Below, piece by piece: positions 4,174 to 58,722 of a stretch of 64,000 bases of DNA. The DNA is from Myxococcota bacterium (GTDB taxonomy: Bacteria > Myxococcota > XYA12-FULL-58-9 > JALHOP01): contig JALHOP010000005.1 in assembly GCA_022842935.1 (NCBI GenBank), positions 337,307 through 401,306 of the forward strand, given 5' to 3'. Both the position numbers and the translations under genes were made by a program. Below the pieces are notes generated by a model. It was not told the origin of the DNA and did no database searches. It saw nothing but the letters and a program-made list of their open reading frames with translations. Each line of letters starts with the position of its first letter. Position 1 is the stretch's first letter.

Positions 4174-7100
4174 ATGAGTAGCTTTGGTGCAAATTCCGGT
4201 TTCGTCGATGAGCTCTACGCGCGGTACCTCGAAGATCCGCAGTCGGTCGGGGAGTCCTGGCAGGAGTTCTTCGCGGACTACAAACCGGCCGGCGGCAACC
4301 CAGCGCCGCGCGCCTCAGCGCCCTCGAACGGCGCACATTCGCAGCTTCCAGCCGCGACCATCGTCGCGCCCGCGACCGGTCCTGTTGTCTCCTCCGGTGC
4401 CGCTGCCAGCGTCGTCCCGACCGGGCATGTGCCCGCGATAGCGACCAAGGCGCCCCCGCAGGCTTCGCTGCCCCAGAGCGAGCACCCCGATGCCGAGCCT
4501 CTCAAGGGGATCGCCGCCAAGATCGCCGAGAACATGGTGATGAGCCTGCACGTGCCGACGGCCACCAGCGTGCGCTCTATCCCCGTGAAGCTCCTCGAAG
4601 AGAACCGCAAGCTCATCAACGCCCACCAGGCGGCGACAAGTGGCGCCAAGGTCTCGTTCACCCACGTCGTCGCGTATGCGCTATTGCGGGCGATGGAAAA
4701 ACATCCCGGCATGAACGACGGCTATGTCGAGCGTGACGGCAAACCGCACCGCGTGCATCGCAAGGTGATCAATCTCGGCCTTGCCATCGACCTCGAGCGC
4801 AAGGGCGAGCGTGTCTTGCTCGTGCCGAACATCAAAGACGCCGGTCGCCTGAGCTTCCTCGAGTTCGTCGCAGCGTATGACGACATCGTGGCCCGCGCGC
4901 GCAACAACAAGCTCGCCGTCGACGAGTTCCAGGGCACGACCGTCAGCATCACGAACCCCGGCATGATTGGCACGCAGCTGTCGGTGCCGCGCCTCATGGA
5001 GGGGCAGTCGGCAATCTTCGGTATCGGCAACATCGGCTTCCCCGCCGAGTATGCCGGTATGTCCAACCAGGTGATCAGCGAGCTTGGCCTCTCGCGCACG
5101 ATGACGATCACGAGCACCTACGACCACCGCGTCATCCAGGGAGCCGAGTCAGGTGGCTTCTGCCGCGACGTCGAGAAGCTCTTGCTGGGTGAAGACCGAT
5201 TTTACGTGCGGATCTTCGATGAGCTCGATGTGCCTTACGAGCCGCTCGCGTGGGCCGGTGACCAGAACGTCGAGGTCTTCGGCGGCCGCGACATGGACGC
5301 TATCCGCAAGCAGGCGCATGTGCTTCAGCTCATCCGTGCGCACCGCGTTCGCGGACACCTGTACGCACATCTCGACCCGCTCTCTATAGAGGCGCCGCAG
5401 CTTCACCCCGAGCTCGAGATGTCGAAGTACGGCCTCACTGTCTGGGACCTCGACCGCCAGTTCATGGCAGGCGAGCTGGCCGGCTCGAACGCGCCGATGC
5501 CGCTGCGCGACATCATGGAGACGTTGCGCGAGACGTACTGCCGCCACATCGGCGTCGAGTACATGCACATCCCGTACGTCGAGCAGCGTGACTGGCTGCA
5601 GGCGCGGATGGAGTCGTCGCGCAACGCCACCCCGTTCACTCCCGAGGAACAGCAGCGCATCTTGAAGAAGCTCAACGCAGCCGAGGCGTTCGAGCGCTTC
5701 CTGCACACCACCTACGTTGGGCAAAAGCGCTTCTCGCTCGAGGGTGGTGAGACGCTCATCCCCATGCTCGATTTCCTTCTCGAGGACGCGGGACGGGTGG
5801 GGGTTACGGCCGCGGTCATTGGCATGGCGCACCGCGGACGGCTCAATGTCTTGGTCAACACCGTTGGCAAGAAGCACGAAAACGTCTTCCGCGAATTCGA
5901 AGGCGAGATGGACCCGGGCATCGCCCATGGCTCCGGCGACGTGAAGTATCACCTCGGCGCCGAGGGCAAACACGTCACCGACAACGGCGACGAAGTTCGC
6001 GTGCTCGTTGCTAGCAACCCGTCACACCTCGAGGCCGTCAACCCCGTTGTCGAGGGCATGGTGCGAGCCATGCAAGACATCGCCGGCGACGTGAAGCGTG
6101 AGAAGACCATCCCGGTTCTCATCCACGGCGATGCCGCTTTCGCGGGGCAGGGCGTCGTGGTCGAGACCCTCGGAATGTCGCAGCTCAACGGCTACCGCAC
6201 CGGCGGCACCGTGCACATCGTCGTGAACAACCAGATTGGCTTCACCACGGGAGCCAAAGACGCGCGCTCGTCGCTCTACTCCACGGATGTCGCCAAAGCG
6301 GTCCACGCGCCAATTTTTCACGTCAATGGTGACAATCCCGAAGACGCGGTGCGTGTCATGCGCCTCGCATTCGCCTTCCGGCATCAGTTCAAGCGCGACG
6401 TCGTCATCGATCTCGTCTGCTACCGTCGCTGGGGCCACAACGAAGGCGACGACCCGTCGTACACGCAGCCGCTGGTGTACCAGCGCATCGAAAATCATCG
6501 CTCGGTTCGAAAAATCTACACCGAGCAACTCTTGCGTCGCGGTGACCTCGATGCGCAGTCGGCCGAGAAGGCGCTCGACGACTTCCGCGTTCAGCTCCAG
6601 GGCATCCACGACGCCGTCAAACAGGCGCAGCAACCCAAACCCCAGTCAGTCGCGCGTGACCGCGAAGATGAGCGAGGCGTTGGCGTCGAGGCCGACGTCG
6701 AAGGGACCGCCGCATCGGCGGAGACCCTCGAGACCGTTCTCGGCGGCCTCGACCGGCCCGTCGAGGGGTTCGAACCGCATCCGAAGTTGGTCAAGCAGCT
6801 GGCCAAGCGTCGCGAGCGCTACGATAGTGGCAAGATCGATTGGGCCTTGGGTGAGACTCTCGCCTTCGGCTCGCTCGTCCTCGAGGGTAACGCTGTCCGC
6901 TTGAGCGGTGAAGACACGGGACGCGGCACCTTCAGCCAACGCCACTGCATCCTCTACGATCACCGCACTGGGTCGCCGTACATCCCGTTGAACAACCTGC
7001 AGCAGGGCCAGGCGAACTTCTCTTGTTACGACTCCTTGCTCTCGGAGTTCGGAGTTTTGGGCTTCGACTACGGCTACTCGGTCAATTTCCCGAAAGCGCT

Positions 7101-7962
7101 GGTCATGTGGGAGGCCCAGTTCGGTGACTTCGTGAATGGCGCTCAGGTCATCATCGACCAGTTCATTTCGAGCGGCGAGCAGAAGTGGAATCAGAAATCG
7201 TCGGTCGTGATGCTTTTGCCGCATGGTTACGAGGGTCAAGGGCCAGAACATTCCAGCGCCCGCATCGAGCGCTTCCTGCAGCTCGCGGCGGCTGGCAACT
7301 GGCGCGTCTGTTATCCGACGACGCCCGCGCAGTACTTCCACCTCTTGCGTCGCCAGGTCCGCAGCGAGCAGCGCAAGCCGTGTGTAGTGTTCACGCCGAA
7401 GTCCCTCTTGCGCCACCCCGATGCAGTGTCCGCCAAAGAAGAGCTTCTCTCTGGCAACTACATGACGGTCATCGGCGATGCGTCCATCAGCGACCCGTCG
7501 GCGGTCACGCGTGTCATTATTTGCAGCGGCAAAATCTACTATGACCTCGATACCGCCCGCCGCGAGAGGAAACTCGCGAACGTCGCTATCGTGCGCCTCG
7601 AGCAGTATTACCCCTTCCCGGCAGAACAGCTCCGCGCCCAGCTCGAGACGTATGCCAACGCGACCGAGGTGCTCTGGGTTCAGGAAGAACCGCGGAACAT
7701 GGGGGCTTGGGATTTCGTCGACGAGCGACTCTTGGCGCTGCTCTACCAGGGCCAGACGTTGCGTTACGTTGGCCGCGCATCGGGGTCGTCGCCGGCAACC
7801 GGCTCATCCAAGCGCCACGCCGCCGAACAGGCCGCGGTGGTTGCCGAGGCTCTCGAAGGCGAAGGCAAGCCTGCCTTAGCTCACGGCCAAAAGGTCATCG
7901 AGACACGCGACAAACAGCCGCAGCCGCAACCAGCGCAGCAGCCGACTCGGGCCGCTGGGTAA
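4174..7962 (+). CDS. kgd: Fused 2-oxoglutarate decarboxylase/dehydrogenase E1 and succinyltransferase E2 (KGD type)
   Basis: This 1262-residue multifunctional enzyme supplies the E1 (thiamine diphosphate) and E2 acyltransferase activities of the 2-oxoglutarate dehydrogenase step of the TCA cycle. The domain order is an E1 N-terminal segment (FVDELYARYLEDPQSV), an Ala/Pro linker at about 35-105, an E2 catalytic domain with the DHR active-site motif at 317-319, and then E1. E1 shows MAHRGRLN at 551-558, the ThDP/Mg segment beginning GDAAFAGQG at 652, and RRWGHNEGDDPSYTQP. There is no lipoyl domain. This is the architecture of mycobacterial Kgd, in which another E2 protein supplies the lipoyl arm. 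No dihydrolipoyl dehydrogenase or lipoyl E2 gene lies nearby. The Rieske oxygenase gene starts ten bases after its stop codon. Confidence 0.95.
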   Translation: MSSFGANSGFVDELYARYLEDPQSVGESWQEFFADYKPAGGNPAPRASAPSNGAHSQLPAATIVAPATGPVVSSGAAASVVPTGHVPAIATKAPPQASLPQSEHPDAEPLKGIAAKIAENMVMSLHVPTATSVRSIPVKLLEENRKLINAHQAATSGAKVSFTHVVAYALLRAMEKHPGMNDGYVERDGKPHRVHRKVINLGLAIDLERKGERVLLVPNIKDAGRLSFLEFVAAYDDIVARARNNKLAVDEFQGTTVSITNPGMIGTQLSVPRLMEGQSAIFGIGNIGFPAEYAGMSNQVISELGLSRTMTITSTYDHRVIQGAESGGFCRDVEKLLLGEDRFYVRIFDELDVPYEPLAWAGDQNVEVFGGRDMDAIRKQAHVLQLIRAHRVRGHLYAHLDPLSIEAPQLHPELEMSKYGLTVWDLDRQFMAGELAGSNAPMPLRDIMETLRETYCRHIGVEYMHIPYVEQRDWLQARMESSRNATPFTPEEQQRILKKLNAAEAFERFLHTTYVGQKRFSLEGGETLIPMLDFLLEDAGRVGVTAAVIGMAHRGRLNVLVNTVGKKHENVFREFEGEMDPGIAHGSGDVKYHLGAEGKHVTDNGDEVRVLVASNPSHLEAVNPVVEGMVRAMQDIAGDVKREKTIPVLIHGDAAFAGQGVVVETLGMSQLNGYRTGGTVHIVVNNQIGFTTGAKDARSSLYSTDVAKAVHAPIFHVNGDNPEDAVRVMRLAFAFRHQFKRDVVIDLVCYRRWGHNEGDDPSYTQPLVYQRIENHRSVRKIYTEQLLRRGDLDAQSAEKALDDFRVQLQGIHDAVKQAQQPKPQSVARDREDERGVGVEADVEGTAASAETLETVLGGLDRPVEGFEPHPKLVKQLAKRRERYDSGKIDWALGETLAFGSLVLEGNAVRLSGEDTGRGTFSQRHCILYDHRTGSPYIPLNNLQQGQANFSCYDSLLSEFGVLGFDYGYSVNFPKALVMWEAQFGDFVNGAQVIIDQFISSGEQKWNQKSSVVMLLPHGYEGQGPEHSSARIERFLQLAAAGNWRVCYPTTPAQYFHLLRRQVRSEQRKPCVVFTPKSLLRHPDAVSAKEELLSGNYMTVIGDASISDPSAVTRVIICSGKIYYDLDTARRERKLANVAIVRLEQYYPFPAEQLRAQLETYANATEVLWVQEEPRNMGAWDFVDERLLALLYQGQTLRYVGRASGSSPATGSSKRHAAEQAAVVAEALEGEGKPALAHGQKVIETRDKQPQPQPAQQPTRAAG

Positions 7963-47037: not shown

Positions 47038-47582
47038 CAGTTGCACTCGATAGGGTACACGGCCCAAGAATAGGTTGCTGTCAGGCCGCTTTCGAGGACG
47101 ACGCGACCGACGACGGTGGGCTCGTCGTCGATCGAGTCGTTGAACTCACGGTCCGAAACATAGAGCTCGATGACGTGCACGTCGCTCGGCCGCTCGAGGA
47201 GGATGGGGTTGTTGGCTGTAACGCTCTCCTGTGCGACGCGTCCGCGACCGGGGGTCGGAGGCGCTTCACCGATGCGCGTGTCGAGGATGTCTTCGGGGTC
47301 GCGGCGAAAGTAGTCGATGAAGAAGCGGTAGTAGAGTGTGTCACGTAGGTTGTCGTCGCCGATATTGGCGAGGAACAGCGTCGGCAGGCCGTTGCAGTTG
47401 AGGGTAATCGGTTCGCCGTCGAAATTCGGTAAGACCGGCTCGATGAACGGCGGGCGGTTCGCGTCCAGGCCCTCCTCGTCGATGGGCGGCGGCAGCACGC
47501 ACGCCGTCCCGATTGTGGCGCATAACAACATCGACACCACCAGCAGCTTAGACGAGCACGGGGCGTGCCAATTCAAGGGCAT
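47037..47582 (-). CDS. Lipoprotein of unknown function
   Basis: This is a 181-residue protein from ATG 47582, which shares one base with the stop of the sigma-54 activator gene; CGGAG lies close upstream. The signal LLVVSMLLCATIGTAC gives a possible lipidation site at Cys28. The mature part is acidic, with a Pro-rich start (VLPPPIDEEG), LYYRFFIDYFRRDPEDILDT and a beta-rich C-terminal half (VHVIELYVSDREF). Cys residues in LNCNGLP and the last IECN could pair. The next lipoprotein gene overlaps its stop. I know of no family. Confidence 0.78.
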   Translation of the reverse strand: MPLNWHAPCSSKLLVVSMLLCATIGTACVLPPPIDEEGLDANRPPFIEPVLPNFDGEPITLNCNGLPTLFLANIGDDNLRDTLYYRFFIDYFRRDPEDILDTRIGEAPPTPGRGRVAQESVTANNPILLERPSDVHVIELYVSDREFNDSIDDEPTVVGRVVLESGLTATYSWAVYPIECN

Positions 47583-49402
47583 CACTCCGACGGAGCTTCG
47601 CCGTCTTCGCGCTCGAGGTGGCGGAAGATGGTGCGGGGGTCGACACCCAAGTCGTGAGCCGTCTTGGTGCGATTGCCGTTGTTCCGCGCCAGGACGTCGT
47701 TGATGTACTGCCGCTGGAAGTCTTCCTTGGCCTGCGCGAGTGGTACCACGGGCGCAAGATCTGCGTCGGAGAGCTCCATGTCCTCGGGGGCGAGTTGCAC
47801 GCGCTCCGCCATGATGACGGCCTTCTTGATGCGATTCTCGAGCTGCCGGATGTTTCCCGGCCAATGATACTTCTTCATGAGCATCACGGACTGGGGCGAG
47901 AAGCCTTTCACCTTCGAGGTGTACTCTTCGGTGTATCGGCGCAAAAAGTAGCGCGCGATGAGCATCAGATCTTCGCCGCGGTCGCGAAGTGGCGGCAGGT
48001 GAATGCCCACGACGTTCAAGCGATAGTAGAGGTCCTCGCGAAACCCACCGCGCTTGATCTCGTCCTCGAGATGCTTGTTGGTTGCCGCGACGATGCGAAT
48101 GTCGACCGCTTCGGGCTTGGTGTCGCCGACCTTGGTGACCACTTTTTCTTGCAGCGCCCGCAGGAGCTTCACCTGAAGGGACACCGGCATCTCGCCGATT
48201 TCGTCCAGAAACAGGGTGCCTTTGTTGGCCGCCTGGAAGCGGCCATCCCGCGTCTGCACCGCACCTGTGAAGGCGCCGCGCACGTGACCGAAGAGCTCGC
48301 TCTCGAGGAGATTTTCGGGAATGGCGCCGCAGTTGACGACAATGAACGCCTTTCCCTTGCGGTCCGAGCGCTCATGGATCTCACGCGCGATGAGTTCCTT
48401 GCCGGTCCCTGTCTCACCGGTGATCAGAACGCTGACGTCGGTGGGGGCCACCTTGCGGATCTTGCGGAAGACATCCTGCATCCGCTCCGACGTACCGACG
48501 ATCTCGCCGAAGCGCTTCTCCTCGAGCGCTTGCCGTAGCTGCGCGTTGTTCGTGCGCAGGTTGTCGAGGAGCATGGCGTTGCGGATGAGCAGCGAAGCCT
48601 GCGCCGCGAAAACGGTCACGACCTCGAGCATGTGTGGCTCGAAGAGGTTCACGACTTTGTTCGAGCCCAGATAGATGAGCCCGAAGAGCTCGCCCGCCTC
48701 CGTGAGAGGGACGCACATGACCGACAGCAGACGCAGGTTCACGACGGAAGCGCTCGCCTTGAACTCGGCGTCATTGACCGCGTCGCTGACGATCACCGGC
48801 TGCTGCTCGCGCACGACCTTGGCGATGATGCTGTCCGAAAGCTCGGTGATGACCGCGCTGGATTCGCCGTGGTCGATGTTGCGTGCCACTTTGATCTGCC
48901 AGGCGCCGTCCTCGAACAGCACGAGGAAGCCGCGGTCGGCCCGGGTGAGCTCGACCACCTTATCCATCAACGTGGTGAGCAAACCGCCAAGCTCGCGGCT
49001 TCGTAGCAGCTTCTCGCTGAACGCTACGACCTCGCGGTAACCGAATATCTCGTTTTTCGGATCGACTCCGCGCGGCTCGTCCGCGTTAACGGAATCATGC
49101 AGCGCAAAGCCCAGCCGCGTCTCACCGAACTCGAGAACGTCGCCCTCGCGAAGCCGCACGCGCTTTTCTTTCTTGCCGTTGACGACGATGGGGCGGCCGC
49201 GCCCGAGGGAAGCAACGACGTAGGCGTCGTCCTCACGTAGGATGTGCGCGTGGTCGGGGAAGAGGTCGTCTCCCGTGACCTGTACGTCAGCTGTCGGGTC
49301 GGTGCCGATGCGCGTGATGTTCTTGTAGAGCGGGATGCGCTGGTCACCCGCGCCTTGCTCTTTCAGCAGAATCAGGACCGCCACGGCCGTTTGCCTTATC
49401 AA
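47582..49402 (-). CDS. Sigma-54-dependent activator with FHA, GAF, AAA+ and Fis-type HTH domains
   Basis: This is a 606-residue enhancer-binding protein. Residues ~15-105 form an FHA fold, ~140-275 a GAF domain, ~305-540 the AAA+ domain and ~565-605 an HTH. AAA+ motifs are Walker A GETGTGKE (Gly329), the sigma-54 contact loop GAFTGA at 376-381, Walker B GTLFLDEIGEM and YHWPGNIRQLENR. The HTH is NRTKTAHDLGVDPRTIFRHL. The FHA core departs from consensus: the GR, SR-x-H and NG positions read GT, FP-x-H and GR, so pThr binding is doubtful. It is cotranscribed with a Ser/Thr kinase two genes upstream. The gene overlaps the next genes on each side. Confidence 0.95.
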   Translation of the reverse strand: MIRQTAVAVLILLKEQGAGDQRIPLYKNITRIGTDPTADVQVTGDDLFPDHAHILREDDAYVVASLGRGRPIVVNGKKEKRVRLREGDVLEFGETRLGFALHDSVNADEPRGVDPKNEIFGYREVVAFSEKLLRSRELGGLLTTLMDKVVELTRADRGFLVLFEDGAWQIKVARNIDHGESSAVITELSDSIIAKVVREQQPVIVSDAVNDAEFKASASVVNLRLLSVMCVPLTEAGELFGLIYLGSNKVVNLFEPHMLEVVTVFAAQASLLIRNAMLLDNLRTNNAQLRQALEEKRFGEIVGTSERMQDVFRKIRKVAPTDVSVLITGETGTGKELIAREIHERSDRKGKAFIVVNCGAIPENLLESELFGHVRGAFTGAVQTRDGRFQAANKGTLFLDEIGEMPVSLQVKLLRALQEKVVTKVGDTKPEAVDIRIVAATNKHLEDEIKRGGFREDLYYRLNVVGIHLPPLRDRGEDLMLIARYFLRRYTEEYTSKVKGFSPQSVMLMKKYHWPGNIRQLENRIKKAVIMAERVQLAPEDMELSDADLAPVVPLAQAKEDFQRQYINDVLARNNGNRTKTAHDLGVDPRTIFRHLEREDGEAPSE

Positions 49403-50280
49403 AACGTCAGTTGAAACAACAAGCCGCCGCTGGGACGCGCCAGGACGGACGGATCGTAGCGTGGTGCCTCCAGCGCCGAGGACACCGGAGAGACCTGGGT
49501 GCGTGGAGCAATGGCGGGCGTTACCTGCAAGCGCGCGTGGTACACGCCGATGCCCCAGGTCAGCGCAAACAGTGACAGAGACGCATACTGCGTGATCTGC
49601 AGGCCTCGCACCAAGCCATGGTCTCCAGAGGGATAGTCGTCACCGATGCCGTAGGTGGCGTAAAGATAGGCGGCGATGTTGAGGCCTAGGAGTACGGCCT
49701 CGGTGAGCGCGAAGAATAGGCCCATCGATGCATCACCGTTCTCGAATTGCCCGACGCCGAACGGCAGAAAGCTCGTCACACCGCGGGCGCCCGTCGTTGG
49801 CGGTATGCTCGCTTCGATGCGTCGAACCGCCGATGCGTTTCCGCTCTGCTCGGCGCGGCGCAATCGGATGACATCGAGTTGTGGCTTTGCCTGCTCGCGG
49901 ATGCGCTCGAACTCGTCGATGATGGGGGGTGGGATCGAGAACGGATCGAGCTGGTAGTCGGGGTCGATGTACAGAAGCTTCTCGAGCTCCTCCCGCATAT
50001 CGACGGGGCGGCTCAACAGGTAGTACGAGAGCCCGAGATATTTGCGGGCCTCGATGACCTGGCTGTCCGACACCAGGCGCATTGGATAGAGCAGGGCGCG
50101 CAGCTGATCGATGGCGGCACCGTAGTTGCCATAGGCGTACTCGTTGATGGCGCGGCGCAGCAGCTCATCGGCGCTCGAGCGCTCTGCGTTGTCCATTTTG
50201 GCGGGCACGGTCATGCCGTTCCCGGGCGGTTGCTGCGCCGTGGGAGCCGTGAGCAGGAGAGCCGCGACCAGCGCCAACAT
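49399..50280 (-). CDS. TPR-like periplasmic/membrane protein of unknown function
   Basis: This 293-residue protein has a signal-like N-terminus (MLALVAALLLTAPTAQQ). Residues ~40-120 contain tetratricopeptide-like helices (LLRRAINEYAYGNYGAAIDQ and ARKYLGLSYYLLS). A charged helical stretch follows, then two hydrophobic segments (MGLFFALTEAVLLGLNIAAY and YASLSLFALTWGIGVYHA) and an SSALEAPRYDPSVLARPSG tail ending in Phe. It lies between the Ser/Thr kinase and the sigma-54 activator, four bases overlapping the latter. The TPR part could recruit partners to the membrane. The family is not recognised. Confidence 0.75.
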   Translation of the reverse strand: MLALVAALLLTAPTAQQPPGNGMTVPAKMDNAERSSADELLRRAINEYAYGNYGAAIDQLRALLYPMRLVSDSQVIEARKYLGLSYYLLSRPVDMREELEKLLYIDPDYQLDPFSIPPPIIDEFERIREQAKPQLDVIRLRRAEQSGNASAVRRIEASIPPTTGARGVTSFLPFGVGQFENGDASMGLFFALTEAVLLGLNIAAYLYATYGIGDDYPSGDHGLVRGLQITQYASLSLFALTWGIGVYHARLQVTPAIAPRTQVSPVSSALEAPRYDPSVLARPSGGLLFQLTF

Positions 50281-50293
50281 GAGTCCTGAAGGG

Positions 50294-52201
50294 TTACAGC
50301 TGGTCGAGCTTCACATCAAGCCTTCGTTCCTGACCGGGCTTGAAGTCGACCACCTTGCGCCATTCGAGATCGCCGCGTCGAACGACCACCTCGAGCGACT
50401 GCGACCCAGCGCCTAAGGGAAGTGGAACGAAGATGGGCTCGTTGCGGGTCTGAGCGTTCACGAGCCAGGTGCGGCCAGCGACCTCGACGGTGGCGCCGTC
50501 GGGCGCCTTGTCGACGAAGAGCTTGGCAGGCAAAGGCTGCAAGCGCACGACGACGAGCTGTGCCGGGTTCACATCGTCGACCGAGACGTTCATTTCGCTC
50601 TCGTAGGCCAGCGGATTGGTGAAGCGAAGACGGTGGGTGCCGTGGGTAAGGTCGAGCGTGAAGGGGCCGATGCGGTCACGGACGACAGGCTCGGCTCCAT
50701 CGTCGACATATGCGGTCACCACGTTGACAGCGTTGAAGCGCACAGGGCGCATCGGGGTTGGCTTGACTGGCACCGGGTCGGCGGGCGGATCGCGCGGAAG
50801 CTTGGGGTCGTCCGGCGGGTTAGCGGGGCTCGCCACGGGTGGCTGCTTGGTGGGAGTCGCCTTCGCGGGTTGCGTGCGGTCCGAGATAGCGGATGTCGCT
50901 GTGTCCCTGGCAGTGGCGTCCTGATTGCGATTGTCGGTGATTGCCGGGTCGGCGATCGGCAAGCGCGCATCGGGGCTCGGATCTTGGCTCTCGGCGATTG
51001 GCGCTCGGCTCTCCGAAGTCGACTCACGGGTCTCGCCGACCCGCCGCGGCTCTTCTTGCTCCGTCTTCCAAGACATGGCCCCGTACGCGACTCCGGCGAG
51101 CAGCATCGCCACCAAGGTCGCGACCGCTCCTGCGCGCGCGGCCTTGAGGAGCGAGACCCGGCGTCCGAGCCGGCGCAGGAGCTTTCGCACCTCGGCGTCG
51201 TGTGGCTTGCTCGCGAGCACTCGGTCGAAGTGCTCCATGGCAACGCCATGTTGACCGCGCGCGAGCGTTTCTTTGCCGAGCTCGACGTAGCGCGTCGTGA
51301 CCCGCTCTTCGAGTTGCTCGCAGTAGTCTCGGGGCTCGGCGAGGAGCTTCGGTAACTCGACTTCCCAATCGAGTCCAAGCGCTCGGAGTTGAGCGTCGAT
51401 GGCGTCGCGAAGCTCGCCTGCGTTGGCGTAGCGCTGCTCGGGTAGGCGCTTCAAGCATCGCACGAGGATGCGGCTGAGCCCGGCGTGGGTTCGCGGATTG
51501 TTCTGCTGTGGCAGTGGGTACTCGCCAGCCGCGATGCGCTTGAGCAACGCGTGCGGCGAGGGTGCTTCGAATGGGAGGCGGCCGACCACCAGGTAGTAGA
51601 GCATGGCCCCGAACGAGAAAATGTCAGCGCGCTCGTCGGTCGCGTAGCCTTCGATGTACTCTGGCGCCATGTAGGCGGGTGAGCCCAAGAGAGTCCCCGT
51701 CATGGTCATCGCCTGATTGTCGAGGATGCGCGCGATCCCGAAATCTGTGAGCTTGAGCTCGCCCGTACGGCCGAGAAGGATGTTCTCGGGCTTGAGGTCG
51801 CGATGGACGACGCCTCCCTTGTGGGCGGCGTCGAGCGCGTCAGCGATTGGTCGTGCGAGGAGCAGCGCAGCCTCGGGGCAAGAGAGCGGACGGTCGCGTA
51901 CGACATCCGCCAGAGCGGACCCAGTGACGAGCTCCATGACGATGTAGCTGGTCGAGGCTTTCTCGCCGGAGTAGTCGAAGATCTCGATGATGTTGGGGTG
52001 GCGAAGCCGCGCGACCGCCACCGCCTCGCGATGAAACCTCTCGCGGGCTTCTGGTTGCTCGGCCAGAAACGTGTGCATGACCTTGATGGCGACGTCACGC
52101 TTGAGCTGCGTGTCGTGCGCTCGGTACACGACGCTCATACCGCCGTGACCGATCTCGGCGGTGAGCTCGTATTTTGCGAGGCGCGTGCCGACGAGGCTCA
52201 T
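50294..52201 (-). CDS. Eukaryote-like Ser/Thr protein kinase with a transmembrane helix and C-terminal PEGA-like domain
   Basis: This is a 635-residue Hanks-type kinase. Residues 1-275 hold the kinase domain: GHGGMSVVY glycine loop, Lys40, HRDLKPEN with Asp135, TDFGIA and GSPAYMAPE. All catalytic residues are intact. A membrane helix lies near 360-380 (AVATLVAMLLAGVAYGAM). A long Pro/Thr/Asp-rich linker follows, and then a beta-rich extracytoplasmic domain with LFVDKAPDGATVEVAGRTWL, like PEGA repeats. ATG 52201 with GAGG upstream is preferred to GTG 52216. It is the first gene of a six-gene operon that also encodes an FHA-GAF sigma-54 activator. A terminator lies 40 bases upstream of its start, belonging to the preceding gene. 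Confidence 0.95.
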   Translation of the reverse strand: MSLVGTRLAKYELTAEIGHGGMSVVYRAHDTQLKRDVAIKVMHTFLAEQPEARERFHREAVAVARLRHPNIIEIFDYSGEKASTSYIVMELVTGSALADVVRDRPLSCPEAALLLARPIADALDAAHKGGVVHRDLKPENILLGRTGELKLTDFGIARILDNQAMTMTGTLLGSPAYMAPEYIEGYATDERADIFSFGAMLYYLVVGRLPFEAPSPHALLKRIAAGEYPLPQQNNPRTHAGLSRILVRCLKRLPEQRYANAGELRDAIDAQLRALGLDWEVELPKLLAEPRDYCEQLEERVTTRYVELGKETLARGQHGVAMEHFDRVLASKPHDAEVRKLLRRLGRRVSLLKAARAGAVATLVAMLLAGVAYGAMSWKTEQEEPRRVGETRESTSESRAPIAESQDPSPDARLPIADPAITDNRNQDATARDTATSAISDRTQPAKATPTKQPPVASPANPPDDPKLPRDPPADPVPVKPTPMRPVRFNAVNVVTAYVDDGAEPVVRDRIGPFTLDLTHGTHRLRFTNPLAYESEMNVSVDDVNPAQLVVVRLQPLPAKLFVDKAPDGATVEVAGRTWLVNAQTRNEPIFVPLPLGAGSQSLEVVVRRGDLEWRKVVDFKPGQERRLDVKLDQL

Positions 52202-52240
52202 ACCTACCTCGTACACTCAACTGCGGTCGTCGAAAACAGC

Positions 52241-52278
52241 AAAGCCCGCGCCGGAGGAGAAACTCCAGCGCGGGCTTT
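52241..52278 (-). terminator. Rho-independent terminator of the FadL-OmpA gene
   Basis: The 11-base arms AAAGCCCGCGC at 52241-52251 and GCGCGGGCTTT at 52268-52278 are perfectly complementary. An inner GGAG/CTCC pair lengthens the stem. In the minus direction the stem is followed by GCTGTTTTC. It lies 13 bases after the fused FadL-OmpA gene and about 40 bases before the kinase gene, so it cuts the lipid-uptake unit from the kinase operon. This is the clearest intrinsic terminator in the window. Confidence 0.88.
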
Positions 52279-52291
52279 GGGAAAAACTCAA

Positions 52292-54334
52292 CTAGTTGTG
52301 CAGGATACGGAACTCGATACGGCGGTTGGCCGCTTGGCCGTCCTTCGTCGCGTTGTCCGCAACCGGTTTGTCGGAGCCGTAGCCGATCGCCGTCATGCGG
52401 TCAGCCGCGACACCCTTACCGGCTAGGTACTTCTTCACGGAGTCAGCGCGACCCTGCGAGAGCACCAGGTTCTTCTCTGCGTTACCCACGTTGTCGGTGT
52501 GGCCTGCGATCTCGAGCTTGAGATCCGGGTACTCGATCAAGGTCTTCGCGATGCCGTCGAGCGTCGCGTAGCTGTCCTTGGTGAGACGCGAGCTCGCGGT
52601 GGCGAACTTCACGCCCTCGAGCTTGCCGTTGAACTTGGCGACCGCGGCGGGCAACTCGTCGGGGCAACCGTCCGTGTCCTGGAAGCCGTTCATCGTTTCT
52701 GGCTCCTTCGGGCAGGTGTCGGCGGCGCCGGCGATGCTGTCGCCGTCGGGATCCGGGTTCGGGCAGCCGTTCGGCATGTCGCCGGCTTCTTGCGGGCAAG
52801 CGTCCGCGTCACCCACGACGCCGTCCTTGTCCGGATCCGGAGGCGGGCAGCCATCGGGCGCGACACCGGTCACGCCGGGGCACTTGTCGACGTTGTCCAT
52901 CACGCCGTCGTTGTCCGCGTCGACTGGAACCGGGCAGCCGGTTCCGTCGTTGCCGGCCACGGTCGGGCAAGCATCGTTGGCATCGGGCACGCCGTCGCTG
53001 TCGCTATCGCGGAGCGGGGTGTCGGTGACGGTGGGCTCCGCGGCAGGCTTACCACCGCAGCTGTCTTCGTTGCCGAACGCCATGCCGACGCTCAAGGCGG
53101 CGACCCATGCGCTGGTACGGAATGTGCCAACCACCGGCTGACGCGCCGACGGAGCGTCCAGGGTCTCACGCGACTTGGGCAGCAGGTACCAACCGCCAGC
53201 GTCCACCCAGAAGTGGCAGGACGGACGTACCGTCACACCAGCGGTGACGATGTTGCGCACGATGTCGGGCAACGTGTGGTCGAGCGACTCGCGCGGAATC
53301 GGGGTTGGGTCATACTCGTAGCCGACGCGTGGTACGACGACTCCGAGGTCGAGTTCGACGCCGGTGCGAACGCCCCAACGGTCTTCGTACTGGCGCACCG
53401 AGGTCGAGGTCGAGCCATCGGGGAAGGTGAAGAGCAGGCGCTCGAAGTCCGACCAGTCGTTCCAGATGGCGTCGGCTTCGATTTCGAGCATGTTGGCGAT
53501 CTTGTAGGCACCGCCGATGATCACCTGCTGCGGAATATCGACGCCGTCGACGTTGCCGGTGCCGTCCGGCGGCAGAAGACCGCGCACCGGCGCTGGGGCG
53601 TCGAAGTCGACGTTGTCGGTACCGGTAAGGCGAGTGCGGATCGGCAGCTGATAACGCGCGCCGAGCGACAGGCCAGGGATGAACTCGGGACGGTACAAGA
53701 CGCCGAAGTGTCCGCCAACGCGGAAGTCGGTTCCGTCGAGGGCGACACTGCCGTAGCTGTTGTTACCGAATGCGATGTCGCGCGTTAGGTAGGCAGAGGC
53801 GTGTACGAGGTCGAGCGTCGCTCCGATCGACAGGCCCTTGATACCGAGCGTCGAGAAGTCGAGCGATGCGGTCGGCTGAAACCACAGCGTTCGCAAGCTC
53901 TGCTCACGCACGACGGTACGGCCCGGCGAGTTTTCTCCCCACCGCACGGTCGCGCCGTACGAGGAGTTGAAGCCGAGACCCAGTGCGAGGAACGGCAAGA
54001 CCTTGCCGCCCAAATACGCATGAGGCGCCGGCAGAACGCCAACGTCGTCATACGTGCGCGGTCCGCCGCCCTCGGGCACGAAGCTGTAGCTCGGGGAGAT
54101 GAGCGACGCACCGAGATAGAGCTGGAACTTGCCGTCGAGGGTCGCGAGACCTGCCGGGTTGTACCAGATGGTCGAGGCGTCACCGGGGCTCGCAACGACA
54201 GCGTTGGAGCGACCGGTGGCGCGGGCGCCCTGGTTGCTCAAGTAGAAGCCCGCAGCCTGCGCGATGCTCGAGGAGAGCATGACGACGCTGGCCAGGATGC
54301 CGACGGAAATCTTTTTAAACATAGTCAATTTCAT
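52292..54334 (-). CDS. FadL-type outer-membrane barrel fused to TSP3 repeats and an OmpA peptidoglycan-binding domain
   Basis: This 680-residue protein joins three parts. A signal peptide (MFKKISVGILASVVMLSSS) precedes a FadL/TodX-like barrel, ~27-430, with the family motif SPGDASTIWYNPAGLA. At ~440-555 are four thrombospondin type-3 repeats (for example DSDSDGVPDANDACP), each a calcium site. At ~565-680 is an OmpA C-domain with LEIAGHTDNVG and ANRRIEF. FadL carries long-chain fatty acids across the outer membrane, and the OmpA part would anchor it to the cell wall. ATG 54334 has AGGAAG seven bases upstream. An ATG at 54349 overlaps the preceding stop and is an alternative. It is coupled to the lipase gene upstream. 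Confidence 0.93.
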   Translation of the reverse strand: MKLTMFKKISVGILASVVMLSSSIAQAAGFYLSNQGARATGRSNAVVASPGDASTIWYNPAGLATLDGKFQLYLGASLISPSYSFVPEGGGPRTYDDVGVLPAPHAYLGGKVLPFLALGLGFNSSYGATVRWGENSPGRTVVREQSLRTLWFQPTASLDFSTLGIKGLSIGATLDLVHASAYLTRDIAFGNNSYGSVALDGTDFRVGGHFGVLYRPEFIPGLSLGARYQLPIRTRLTGTDNVDFDAPAPVRGLLPPDGTGNVDGVDIPQQVIIGGAYKIANMLEIEADAIWNDWSDFERLLFTFPDGSTSTSVRQYEDRWGVRTGVELDLGVVVPRVGYEYDPTPIPRESLDHTLPDIVRNIVTAGVTVRPSCHFWVDAGGWYLLPKSRETLDAPSARQPVVGTFRTSAWVAALSVGMAFGNEDSCGGKPAAEPTVTDTPLRDSDSDGVPDANDACPTVAGNDGTGCPVPVDADNDGVMDNVDKCPGVTGVAPDGCPPPDPDKDGVVGDADACPQEAGDMPNGCPNPDPDGDSIAGAADTCPKEPETMNGFQDTDGCPDELPAAVAKFNGKLEGVKFATASSRLTKDSYATLDGIAKTLIEYPDLKLEIAGHTDNVGNAEKNLVLSQGRADSVKKYLAGKGVAADRMTAIGYGSDKPVADNATKDGQAANRRIEFRILHN

Positions 54335-54348
54335 CGTGGGCTTCCTCA

Positions 54349-56658
54349 TTACTCGGCGGCCGCAGCGGCTGCGGCGAGTTGGGTTGCCAAGAAGGTGAAT
54401 GCGTCAGTCTGCATCTGAGCCGTCGCTGCTTGGCCCTGGGGCGTCGCTGCGGCGGGCTGCAAGAGCGAACCGTGGCCATAGGTGACTGTGTCGCTGCTGT
54501 AGTTCAACCAAGCAGCGGCCGTCGCAGAGTCGGCAAGACCGGCGCTCGGGGAGAACGGCGGCACTGTCGGCGTCGTCGCGTCAGTCGCGCTGGCGAACCC
54601 GAGGAGGCGGCCGATGATGGCGGTCGACTCGTTCGGTACTACCGCGTCACCTTCGACTTGCTGCACGAGCACGTGCAGGTCACCAGCTGCCACGCGGCCA
54701 CCGATGACGTCGAGGAAGTTCACGCCGTCGCATGGATCGGCGATCCAGCGGGTGGCCGCTGCGAACGAGCGGTAGGCCGGCTCGGACGCCACAGCGATGG
54801 GGAGCGCCGTATTGGTCTGAACGCAAAGCGCGTCGACCTCGTTGAACGAGTTGTCTGGCTGCAGCCAGAGCTTGCCTTGCAACGTGCCGTTGTTGATCAA
54901 CGCGTCGATGAGCGGGCACTTGATGCGGTTGCTGTCGGTGTTCTCGAGGATGGTCGTGAGACTCACGCCGCCGACGTTGAACACGGCCGCCTTGAAGCCA
55001 CCCTGCATGGCCACAGGTAGCGTTCCGATGATGGCGCCGAGCGACTGGCCGATATAGCCGACCGCGTCGGCGTTGATCGCGAAGCCGTTGCAGTTCGCGA
55101 CGCCGTCGGGGGCGGCGCACTCGTTGGTCATGGCGGCGATGAGGCTCATGATGTCGAGCGCGCCCTGACGGAACCCGTCACGCGTCGCCGGGAGGTTCGA
55201 GCTCAAGATTGGCGCGAAGCACGCAGGGCTGAGCGTCGGGTCAGCAGCGCCCGCGTCGCTTGGGTCCTGGCAGGCCGAGCCGGTCGGGAAGATTTGCACC
55301 GCGCGCGAGCCGTGGAGCGGCCAGTCGATGGCGACCGTCGCGATGCCGAGGCCAGCGAGCTGGCCCGCGATGGCGAGCAAGTCGCCCTTCGAACGGGTGA
55401 TGCCATGCGCGAAGACCACCAGCGGATAGCCGGTAGCAGGCGCCGGAGTTGCCGGCCGCACTGCGAGGATCTCGAGCGGATCCCCCGGTTGCTCGGTGGG
55501 ATTGAGGGGGTTGCTCCACGGACCGGGAACCGGGTCGGTGAGCGCGCCAGTGTTGGGGCCGGCGACCTGGAAGTTCGGAGCGTCGAGGGCGCCGCCGAAG
55601 ACGTTGCCGATGGCCGCGCAAGGCAGCTGGGTGCAGATGCCAGCGCCCAAATTGGCCTCGTAGAATTGCTCGACGGTGGCGCCTGCGGGCGCTCCTGCGA
55701 TCGGGCCGAACGGGCCAGCGAGAGCGGCATTTTCGGTCACGAACGCGGCCGGGCCGGCGCCAGCCGGGTCAAGAGGCGCCTCGACGGTCTGCGTCTTGAA
55801 AGACCACGCGATGAGAATGTCGTCGCGCGTGACCTCTTCACCGGTGACGGTGTCGAGCGCGACGTCGACGTAGGGAAGGAACGTCTGGTTGAGACCGAAC
55901 AGCCGCTGGATACCAGCCAGCGACTCAATGGTGTCGGCCACGCCGTTGGCGTTCGCGTCGCGCGGGTCGAACTGGTCGAGCGGCGTGTTGTTGAACACGA
56001 CATCGCTCGTCGTCAGCACGCCGTTTTCATCCTGATCGAAGATGCTGACCGGAGCGGCGAGCTGGCGGCTGAAGAACCAGGTCGTCGACGGCTGGAACTC
56101 TTCACCGTCAGTCGAGGTCACGCCCTGCAGGACGGCCACGGTGTAGACGGAGTCGTCGTCGAGCGGTACCACCGGCGTTACGGTGATCGCTTCGATGACG
56201 TTGGCCGCGCCGCACGTCGGCAGGGCCTCATCGTAACGAATGGTCTGGAAGCGCCCAACCTGGGCCGGTACTGCTACGGCGTCCGTCGGATCGGCCACCC
56301 GCTTCACCAGGAACACGCGCCCTGCGGTGCTCGCCAGGTCGACCTGCGCCGTGAAGGTCGCGAAGACCGCTGGCAGCCAGGTGCCCGCGCCGTCGAGCGT
56401 GTTGAGCACGCCTTCGCGCAGGCCCTGCGCCCCGGTCGATTCGCCGCACGTCGCCGGCAGCGTGTTCAACCCGGTCGTAGGCGACAGAAGGAGAACGTTC
56501 GGGAATGGAATGATGCTGTTCGACGGGTCGAAATCCTGGATCTGCGGTGAGCTCACCAGCAGTTCGGCGGTCTCGGTCTCATCGACCTCGGCTTGGTCCA
56601 AGCAACCGGCCGCGATAGCGGTCATTGCGAGGACTACGGGGATGCGAAAACGCATCAT
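54349..56658 (-). CDS. VolA/Pla-1-type extracellular lipase lipoprotein
   Basis: This 769-residue lipoprotein (lipobox IAAGC, Cys19) has the bacterial lipase N-terminal domain: FDPSNSIIPFPNVLLLSP is the family's signature, followed by several all-beta modules. The alpha/beta-hydrolase core has VVFAHGITRSKGD (oxyanion, His418), the nucleophile Ser539 in GYIGQSLGAIIG, the probable Asp671 in VEGDAVVPN and His729 in TYGHGSL. The family includes Vibrio VolA, a surface lysophospholipase. In VolA the operon partner is FadL; here the FadL fusion gene follows with a TAATG overlap. The expected substrate is exogenous lysophospholipid or another acyl ester. GGAG precedes the paired ATGs at the start. 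Confidence 0.9.
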   Translation of the reverse strand: MMRFRIPVVLAMTAIAAGCLDQAEVDETETAELLVSSPQIQDFDPSNSIIPFPNVLLLSPTTGLNTLPATCGESTGAQGLREGVLNTLDGAGTWLPAVFATFTAQVDLASTAGRVFLVKRVADPTDAVAVPAQVGRFQTIRYDEALPTCGAANVIEAITVTPVVPLDDDSVYTVAVLQGVTSTDGEEFQPSTTWFFSRQLAAPVSIFDQDENGVLTTSDVVFNNTPLDQFDPRDANANGVADTIESLAGIQRLFGLNQTFLPYVDVALDTVTGEEVTRDDILIAWSFKTQTVEAPLDPAGAGPAAFVTENAALAGPFGPIAGAPAGATVEQFYEANLGAGICTQLPCAAIGNVFGGALDAPNFQVAGPNTGALTDPVPGPWSNPLNPTEQPGDPLEILAVRPATPAPATGYPLVVFAHGITRSKGDLLAIAGQLAGLGIATVAIDWPLHGSRAVQIFPTGSACQDPSDAGAADPTLSPACFAPILSSNLPATRDGFRQGALDIMSLIAAMTNECAAPDGVANCNGFAINADAVGYIGQSLGAIIGTLPVAMQGGFKAAVFNVGGVSLTTILENTDSNRIKCPLIDALINNGTLQGKLWLQPDNSFNEVDALCVQTNTALPIAVASEPAYRSFAAATRWIADPCDGVNFLDVIGGRVAAGDLHVLVQQVEGDAVVPNESTAIIGRLLGFASATDATTPTVPPFSPSAGLADSATAAAWLNYSSDTVTYGHGSLLQPAAATPQGQAATAQMQTDAFTFLATQLAAAAAAAE

Positions 56659-56717
56659 GGCTCTCCTTGGCCGGCGAAAACAGCCGAGCCGGTCTCGGTT
56701 GCATCGCGCGGGTCGTT

Positions 56718-56729
56718 ACGTGCGCACGT
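56718..56729. promoter_or_regulatory. 12-base perfect palindrome in the lipase/acyl-CoA synthetase divergent region
   Basis: ACGTGCGCACGT is a perfect palindrome placed 60-71 bases before the lipase start and about 176 bases before the acyl-CoA ligase start. A second inverted repeat, CCGAG-CCGGT-CTCGG, lies at 56684-56698, and GCGATCGC lies at 56814-56821. The 246-base space is the only region that can hold both divergent promoters. Palindromes of this sort are typical operators of TetR-type fatty-acid regulators, but no such regulator is encoded in the window. Confidence 0.35.
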
Positions 56730-56904
56730 CGGTAAGGCGTTTTCGAGCGCGGGTCAATCTCGATGTGATGCAAACAGGGACTTTTGTTGCCAAAATCGTA
56801 AAAGTGCGACATTGCGATCGCGGTTTTGGGAATTCACCCCCCGCGTGGTGGGTTCCACTCGCGACTTGCAGAGCCTGCCGACCTAGAGCTAGAGAGCCCA
56901 CCTC

Positions 56905-58722
56905 ATGGCCCGTACTACAATCCTTGATTTGTTCGTCGACAATGCCGAGCAGCACGCAACGAAGGTCGCAGCGCTCGTCAAGCGCGACGGTCGCTACGAA
57001 GAGCGCACCTGGAAGCAGCTCTACGACGAGGCCATGCGTGCCTCGACTGGCTTGCTTGCCCAGGGCGTCAAGCTCGGCGACCGCGTCCATATCGTCTCGA
57101 ATACGCGTCTCGAGTGGGTCATTCTCGACATGGCGATCGTGCACGCCGGCGGCATCACGGTTCCGGTCTACCCATCGTCTCTCGCCGAGGAGTGTGGCTA
57201 CATCGCGCAGAACAGCGGCGCCGTGCTCGCGTTCGTCGAAGACGAGAAGCAGACCGAGAAGATGCTGGCTGAGCGCAAGAATATGCCAGAGCTGCGCCGG
57301 GTCGTGCAGATGACCGGGGCTGTGCCGGCGAGCGCCGACGGTTGGGTCATCACGTACGACGCATTCATCAAACAAGGTGGCGACGTCGATAAGGTCAAGG
57401 CCGAGCTCGAGACGCGGCGCAAGTCGCTTCAGAAGGACTCGCCCTTCACACTCATCTACACGTCCGGCACCACGGGCAAGCCGAAGGGCGTCGTTCTTAC
57501 CCATGACGCGATGGCCTACGAGGCCGAGGCGGTGCAAGCGATCAACGTGCTCCGCGAAAGCGACATCCAGCTGTTCTTCTTGCCGCTGTCGCACTCGTTC
57601 GGTCGCGTCCTCGAAGCCGCTTGGCTGTCGTGCCGCTACATCATGGCCTTCGCCGAAAACATGCAGACGATTCGCGAGAATCTCGGTGAAGTGCGGCCGA
57701 CGATCATGTGCGGTGTTCCGCGCGTGTTCGAGAAATTCTTCAGCGCGGTGGTCCAGAAGGGGACGGCGCCGGGTGGCCTCAAGGCGAAGCTGTTCAACGC
57801 CGCCGTCGAGCTCTCGCAGAAGAACGGTGAGGCCGAGAAGGAAGGACGTTCACTGGGACTACGGGACGGCATCAGGTTCGCGGTCCTCAAGAAGCTTGTC
57901 TTCTCGAAGGTAGGCAAGGGCCTGAGCGAGCTGCTCGGCGGGCGTATGCGCATCCTGGTCTCGGGCGGCGCTCCCTTGTCGCCGAAGATCAACTGGTTCT
58001 TCCGAGACGCCGGTATCGAGATCCTCGAAGGCTACGGCCTCACTGAGACGTCTGCGGCAAGCTTCGTGAATCGTCCTGGCCAGAACAGCATCGGCTCGGT
58101 CGGCCTGCCTCTACCCGGCACGGAAGTGAAGATCGCCTCCGACGGCGAGATCCTCATCAAGGGCCGTGGCGTGATGAAGGAGTACTGGAACAATCCGTCC
58201 GCTACTGCGGAGGTTCTGAAAGACGGCTGGTTCTCGACTGGCGACATCGGAATGATCGAGCCCGGCGGTACGCTCCGGATTACCGACCGCAAGAAGGACA
58301 TCATCGTCACGGCGGGCGGCAAGAATGTTGCCCCGCAGAACATCGAGAACGTCCTCAAGACCCACAAGCTCATCTCGCAGGCCGTCGTCCACGGGGACAA
58401 GCGCAAGTATCTGACTGCGGTCGTCACGCTCGACCCCGATGTGCTCAAGACCGTCGCCAAAGAGGAAGGTCTGGGCAACGGCTCGGTCGAAGAGCTCAGC
58501 AAGCGCCCTGAGATCGAAAAGATGGTCGACGCTTGGATCACCGAGGTGAACAAGCAGCTGGCGAGCTATGAGAGCATCAAGCGCTTCGCCATTCTCGACC
58601 ACGATTTTTCGGTCGAAAGCGGTGAGATGACGCCCTCGCTCAAGATCAAGCGTAAGGTCGTCAACGAACGCTACAAGAAGCTCTTCGACTCGATGTACGA
58701 GGGTGCTGGCGGCGGCGACTGA
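56905..58722 (+). CDS. Long-chain fatty-acid-CoA ligase (AMP-forming)
   Basis: The 605-residue enzyme activates fatty acids to acyl-CoA through an acyl-adenylate. The P-loop-like motif is LIYTSGTTGKPKG. Then come FLPLSHSFGRV, GYGLTETSA, GWFSTGDIG, and the hinge/ATP motif ITDRKKDIIVTAGGKNVAPQN; a late MTPSLKIKRKVV carries the catalytic Lys (LKIKRK). The pattern places it with the FadD15/long-chain subgroup. It is transcribed away from the VolA-like lipase and the FadL fusion, so released and imported acids could be activated in the same cell. The following lipoprotein gene overlaps the stop by one base. Confidence 0.95.
   Translation: MARTTILDLFVDNAEQHATKVAALVKRDGRYEERTWKQLYDEAMRASTGLLAQGVKLGDRVHIVSNTRLEWVILDMAIVHAGGITVPVYPSSLAEECGYIAQNSGAVLAFVEDEKQTEKMLAERKNMPELRRVVQMTGAVPASADGWVITYDAFIKQGGDVDKVKAELETRRKSLQKDSPFTLIYTSGTTGKPKGVVLTHDAMAYEAEAVQAINVLRESDIQLFFLPLSHSFGRVLEAAWLSCRYIMAFAENMQTIRENLGEVRPTIMCGVPRVFEKFFSAVVQKGTAPGGLKAKLFNAAVELSQKNGEAEKEGRSLGLRDGIRFAVLKKLVFSKVGKGLSELLGGRMRILVSGGAPLSPKINWFFRDAGIEILEGYGLTETSAASFVNRPGQNSIGSVGLPLPGTEVKIASDGEILIKGRGVMKEYWNNPSATAEVLKDGWFSTGDIGMIEPGGTLRITDRKKDIIVTAGGKNVAPQNIENVLKTHKLISQAVVHGDKRKYLTAVVTLDPDVLKTVAKEEGLGNGSVEELSKRPEIEKMVDAWITEVNKQLASYESIKRFAILDHDFSVESGEMTPSLKIKRKVVNERYKKLFDSMYEGAGGGD

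Follow-up and report, generated by a model that had tools for sequence, protein, structure and literature searches.

A FadL-type barrel joined to a TSP3 stalk and an OmpA domain beside a VolA-like lipase gene in a Myxococcota bacterium

Outer-membrane channels of the FadL (fatty-acid-uptake) type are otherwise single free barrels. In canonical FadL, the substrate exits through the wall of the barrel (PMC12611786). In Vibrio cholerae, VolA (vca0863), encoded beside the FadL homologue vca0862 (PMC9496633), cleaves phospholipid at the cell surface; uptake of the fatty acids set free there proceeds through FadL and FadD (PMC9496633, PMC12208996, PMC11323476). Docking showed no suitable internal channel in vca0862 (PMC9496633), and a FadL paired with VolA may thus be something other than an ordinary importer. 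BamG of the Bacteroidota BAM, which is homologous to FadL, binds a surface lipoprotein and fills its lateral opening with its own N-terminus (PMC12611786, PMC12578637), and TraB of myxobacteria has an N-terminus that was without detectable homology when described (PMC3325183).

Here we describe a gene whose product is a new architecture from known parts: both families are known, and their combination is absent from the other FadL genes examined. As in FadL, TodX and TbuX (PF03349), the protein has a predicted 14-stranded barrel, an N-terminal NPA hatch, an S3-kink region and a mature start of AGF; all solved members of that family, however, stop at the last strand, whereas the fusion protein adds four TSP3 repeats and an OmpA domain. 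The order of TSP3 followed by a peptidoglycan-binding domain recalls OprF/OmpA-type TSP3 proteins (Capnocytophaga-type 5wtl and the paralogue L177 of the same genome), but those carry an 8-stranded barrel and not a 14-stranded FadL channel. The locus resembles VolA-FadL-FadD of V. cholerae in that a gene for a surface-type lipoprotein phospholipase adjoins the FadL gene with an acyl-CoA ligase nearby; it differs in that the lipase is only distantly related to VolA, the FadL is predicted to be wall-anchored and the FadD-like gene is divergently adjacent. Like TraA/TraB, it is an overlapping gene pair for a surface protein and an OmpA-domain envelope protein, although the N-terminus of TraB is not FadL. 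With BamG it shares a FadL-family barrel associated with a surface lipoprotein; in BamG, by contrast, an N-terminal extension plugs the lateral gap, and no OmpA domain has been reported.

The fusion gene and its neighbours

The window (the whole stretch of 64,000 nucleotides analysed) contains the following features at this locus.

50294..52216 (-), Ser/Thr protein kinase gene, a conserved downstream neighbour and the start of a separate unit
52240..52279 (-), intrinsic terminator-like hairpin 3' of the fusion gene, 17 pairs, z = -6.1 for the surrounding fold
52292..54334 (-), FadL-TSP3-OmpA fusion gene, 680 aa if begun at ATG 54334, 685 aa for the open frame that extends to ATG 54349
52298..52612 (-), OmpA C-terminal domain, predicted to bind peptidoglycan, with GHTD and LSxxRAD motifs (Pfam, motifs)
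52652..53008 (-), four TSP3-type repeats starting at residues 448, 477, 505 and 533, and a linker ending in CPDE (Pfam, sequence)
53075..54127 (-), predicted 14-stranded FadL barrel, residues 75-425, with a break in strand 3 at 129-130 (model and alignment)
54134..54253 (-), predicted N-terminal hatch with the NPA motif at residues 64-66 (alignment and model)
54254..54334 (-), predicted signal peptide, predicted cut ...AQA|AGF
54349..56658 (-), predicted VolA/Pla-1-like lipoprotein phospholipase gene, directly upstream of the fusion gene
56659..56904 (no strand), intergenic region between the divergent VolA-like and FadD-like genes, from the ORF coordinates
56905..58722 (+), FadD-like long-chain acyl-CoA ligase gene (PF00501), divergent from the VolA-like gene

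The original prediction had put a FadL signature, four TSP3 repeats and an OmpA C-domain into one protein whose frame no stop or frameshift breaks. Our reading of the minus-strand frame 52292-54349 finds it open throughout, and families, fold prediction and relatives bear out the three parts. The fourth repeat is degenerate (DPDGDS). In Pfam, the 685-aa frame matches Toluene_X/FadL over residues 24-425 (E=7.1e-40, profile positions 2-421 of 421), TSP_3 (E=1.5e-7; 31.4 bits versus a cut-off of 25) and OmpA (PF00691) over residues 582-676 (E=1.6e-21; 76.9 bits versus a cut-off of 27.2); together with the structural scores given below, these values are far beyond chance. ATG 54334, the start in the original prediction, is the likelier one, because it has GAGGAAG upstream and opens a clean signal peptide, whereas ATG 54349 sits in a stop/start overlap (TAATG) where the stop of the VolA-like gene overlaps the possible start by one base. 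The predicted mature protein begins with AGF like E. coli FadL, and in the alignment to 1t16 its residue 33 corresponds to FadL residue 1.

Most relevant to the cargo are two neighbours absent from the original prediction: the VolA-like lipase and, divergent from it, the FadD-like gene. The sole NCBIfam match of the lipase is TIGR03502 (VolA/Pla-1) at E=3e-40, with 138.1 bits versus a curated cut-off of 383.9; we therefore name it VolA-like and not VolA, and its substrate and exact reaction are guesses. It carries a lipobox Cys19, a GQSLG motif with Ser539, Asp671 and a His near 729, and Cys19 and Ser539 are invariant in an alignment of six sequences of relatives. A search of 56659..56904 for a promoter-like site found none. 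The strong hairpin 3' of the fusion gene makes lipase and channel look like one two-gene unit. Beyond it, a trio encoding the Ser/Thr kinase, a hypothetical protein and an FHA-GAF-sigma54 activator (47582-52216, minus strand) adjoins the lipid locus in three genomes and perhaps regulates it.

The barrel and its probable cargo

Structure prediction with AlphaFold2 (7 sequences, mean pLDDT 64.5), read with DSSP, gives a barrel of 14 strands after a hatch with short helices, the very strand number and hatch by which the original prediction proposed to recognize a FadL channel. The stalk is without resolved structure in this model, which is the better one for the barrel; a wider alignment of 80 sequences modelled the second half of the barrel worse, probably because stalk and OmpA rows are misaligned there, and from that model we used the OmpA part and the N-terminal half. 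The barrel model superposes on E. coli FadL with Z 40.4 (2.4 A over 374 residues, VIA-align), and its 24 best PDB matches in Foldseek are all FadL, TodX, TbuX or CymD. Profile comparison likewise ranks E. coli FadL first (1e-55), followed by TbuX (2e-36) and TodX (4e-33); the profile alignment pairs FadL Arg157 with Arg190 and Asp348 with Asp347, and NPA is also matched. At the S3 kink, S100-N-Y-G of FadL aligns to S129-S130-Y131-G132, where strand 3 of the model is broken (129-130). NPA, Arg157, Asp348 and serine 100 have known roles in E. coli FadL, of which mutant structures have been solved. A profile match over the whole barrel, the modelled 14 strands and hatch, NPA and the S3-kink region thus place the protein in PF03349, and uptake of hydrophobic compounds is predicted for it. 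The even number of strands and the periplasmic N-terminus would put the C-terminus of the barrel in the periplasm, as an OmpA anchor requires.

Taken with the neighbouring genes, we consider it probable that this FadL-type channel works with the upstream VolA-like lipase in lipid scavenging and became tethered to peptidoglycan in this lineage. By analogy with V. cholerae, the VolA-like protein, as a putative surface lipoprotein, would release fatty acids from phospholipids or lysophospholipids at the cell surface; the barrel would import the freed acids and pass them sideways through the S3 gap into the outer membrane, and the divergent FadD-like ligase would trap them as acyl-CoA.

Two other readings of the barrel seem unlikely to us. 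The barrel might serve mainly to keep the VolA-like lipoprotein at the surface or to present it there, in the way BamG serves BamH; transport would then be lost or of secondary importance, and the OmpA domain would tether a lipase-display complex to the wall. BamG is the next structural match behind the transporters (Z about 30) and, being homologous to FadL itself, engages a surface lipoprotein while its own N-terminus fills the lateral opening (PMC12611786, PMC12578637); the layout is also comparable to TraA/TraB, in which the genes for an OmpA-domain envelope protein and a surface protein overlap, conservation of the VolA-FadL pairing is strong, and docking gave no clear channel for vca0862. 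However, the mature N-terminus is short and FadL-like (AGF) and lacks a BamG-type extension through the lateral gap, NPA and the channel residues are retained, and channel-type FadLs match better than BamG (Z 35-40 versus 30). We rejected identity with BamG-like proteins because the N-terminal extension is absent, and identity with TraB because NF033763 scores 157 bits versus a cut-off of 700, its best stretch (499-683) being mainly stalk and OmpA.

The second of these readings, which we find equally improbable, is that the channel imports another hydrophobic compound (an aromatic hydrocarbon, a terpene or an ester), like TodX, TbuX or CymD, and that the hydrolase cleaves its ester. All three proteins are close structural matches (Z 35-36), and the second FadL gene of this genome adjoins another alpha/beta hydrolase gene. 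Yet the profile favours E. coli FadL over TodX and TbuX, and the neighbours are VolA-like and FadD-like, with no hydrocarbon degradation gene seen adjoining the fusion gene.

The stalk and the wall anchor

The stalk follows the DxDxDG..D..D.CP pattern of TSP3 repeats (PF02412), with putative calcium binding. In the OmpA domain, which is closest to solved peptidoglycan-type OmpA domains, GHTD and LSQGRAD lie at places matching the Asp and Arg that bind diaminopimelate; the correspondence is by motif and not by structure, the two binding positions being those described in PMC5974059. The domain may therefore bind peptidoglycan. The same genome has 16 OmpA domains above cut-off, and at least seven of its proteins end in TSP3-OmpA, on N-terminal parts as unlike as the 8-stranded OMP_b-brl, PF13557-type barrels, unassigned N-termini and this FadL. 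Such modules are abundant in Myxococcota. In a tree of 29 OmpA domains, the domain of the fusion protein groups (100/99, with the bootstrap not settled and row L023 long) with OMP_b-brl-TSP3-OmpA proteins, among them the paralogue L177, an OmpA-type protein that bears the same stalk and domain on an 8-stranded barrel (54% identical). These relationships suggest that stalk and anchor probably came from an ordinary 8-stranded OmpA-type protein, whose TSP3 stalk and OmpA C-domain would have been gained at the 3' end of the FadL gene. Other larger barrels of this genome bear the same anchor: L185, L188 and L191 are PF13557-type (Phenol_MetA_deg) barrels with TSP3 and OmpA. In Myxococcota, the module thus shifts among unlike barrels, namely 8-stranded, PF13557-type and FadL.

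The abundance of the module in the phylum, its presence on PF13557-type barrels and the 8-stranded paralogue with the same stalk and domain would also suit an OmpA/OprF-like structural wall link in which the barrel was swapped, the role being envelope stability and transport incidental. We think this quite improbable, since the fusion lies at a conserved lipase-FadL locus rather than an ompA locus and retains the FadL residues.

Under the scavenging model that we favour, the channel would be held non-covalently to peptidoglycan through the OmpA C-domain, and the tether would probably serve to retain the scavenging unit in the envelope and at its place there, as an OmpA-like wall link with less loss in vesicles. 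Holding the uptake unit in place is more likely than guiding cargo through the periplasm, because the lateral-gate (S3-kink) region is kept and FadL releases its cargo sideways into the outer membrane; the suggestion in the original prediction that the stalk sets a fixed distance for periplasmic substrate delivery is accordingly rather unlikely. A bolder possibility, to which we give little credence, is that lipase, FadL barrel and wall anchor form one fixed surface lipid-harvesting complex, with the barrel positioning the VolA-like lipoprotein, as a FadL counterpart of the TraAB and BamG assemblies. A FadL tied to peptidoglycan in an operon with a presumed lipase would make it possible to ask directly if hydrophobic uptake depends on the channel being mobile or fixed, and if VolA-type lipases join FadL channels in a complex.

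The locus in relatives and the rarity of the fusion

The VolA-FadL pair is widespread in Myxococcota: a VolA-like gene lies beside FadL at 24 of the 29 closest FadL loci of the phylum. The best-matching relative (G004) has the identical order FadD, divergent from VolA-FadL-kinase-hypothetical-sigma54 regulator, at 38-72% identity (62% for the FadD-like ligase at the same place), and its FadL finishes with a Pro-rich tail and has neither stalk nor anchor.

The original prediction had left room for a known, widespread architecture, but the fusion was seen in no other FadL examined. Among the matches listed in 195 Myxococcota genomes searched with the barrel, a FadL with an OmpA tail occurred in this genome only; distant Myxococcaceae FadLs entered that comparison if within E 1e-10 of this barrel, and frames below about 620 residues are too short for stalk and anchor. 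None of the other barrel frames inspected (about 145, some loci overlapping) had an OmpA tail, and neither did 16 further long frames, nor a PF03349 search of 54 genomes with 17 further long frames. The same held for 80 named loci in Calditrichota, Bacteroidota, Acidobacteriota, Desulfobacterota and others, a sample of other phyla taken from a genome-collection scan with three sequences; a scan of the collection with the barrel of this protein alone gave no match. In the library of papers searched, none dealt with FadL-OmpA fusions.

Only one assembled genome has so far shown the fusion. Misassembly or a double chimera appears unlikely, since the relative whose FadL lacks the extension has the same neighbours on both sides, VolA-like upstream and kinase downstream. 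That an error of assembly or gene calling fused separate FadL and TSP3-OmpA genes, as low-complexity TSP3 repeats and the many such genes in this genome might allow, is extremely improbable, as the frame is intact, GC and GC3 are similar across the parts, and both flanks are syntenic with G004 and a further relative (G007), so that two joins would be needed.

Several minor observations accompany these results. In G007, the second gene downstream of FadL, behind the kinase gene, encodes a coiled-coil lipoprotein with an OmpA domain (L096:3747-4544); this may be coincidence, or it may hint that the locus goes along with wall anchoring, with a separate anchor possibly serving the unit. A contig labelled Acidimicrobiia (L098, JABDMN010000216.1) carries a VolA-like/FadL pair 37-39% identical to the present one; as a Gram-positive class would not be expected to hold an outer-membrane system, the contig may be mis-binned. 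The second FadL gene of the present genome (L183:4648-7637, contig C9) adjoins, besides its alpha/beta hydrolase (PF00561), a gene for a 1044-aa protein without a family match. Elsewhere in the window, positions 4174-7962 (+) encode a 2-oxoglutarate dehydrogenase E1 that also carries an E2-type acyltransferase domain in its single chain (PRK12270, 1770 bits), an arrangement best known from Actinobacteria.
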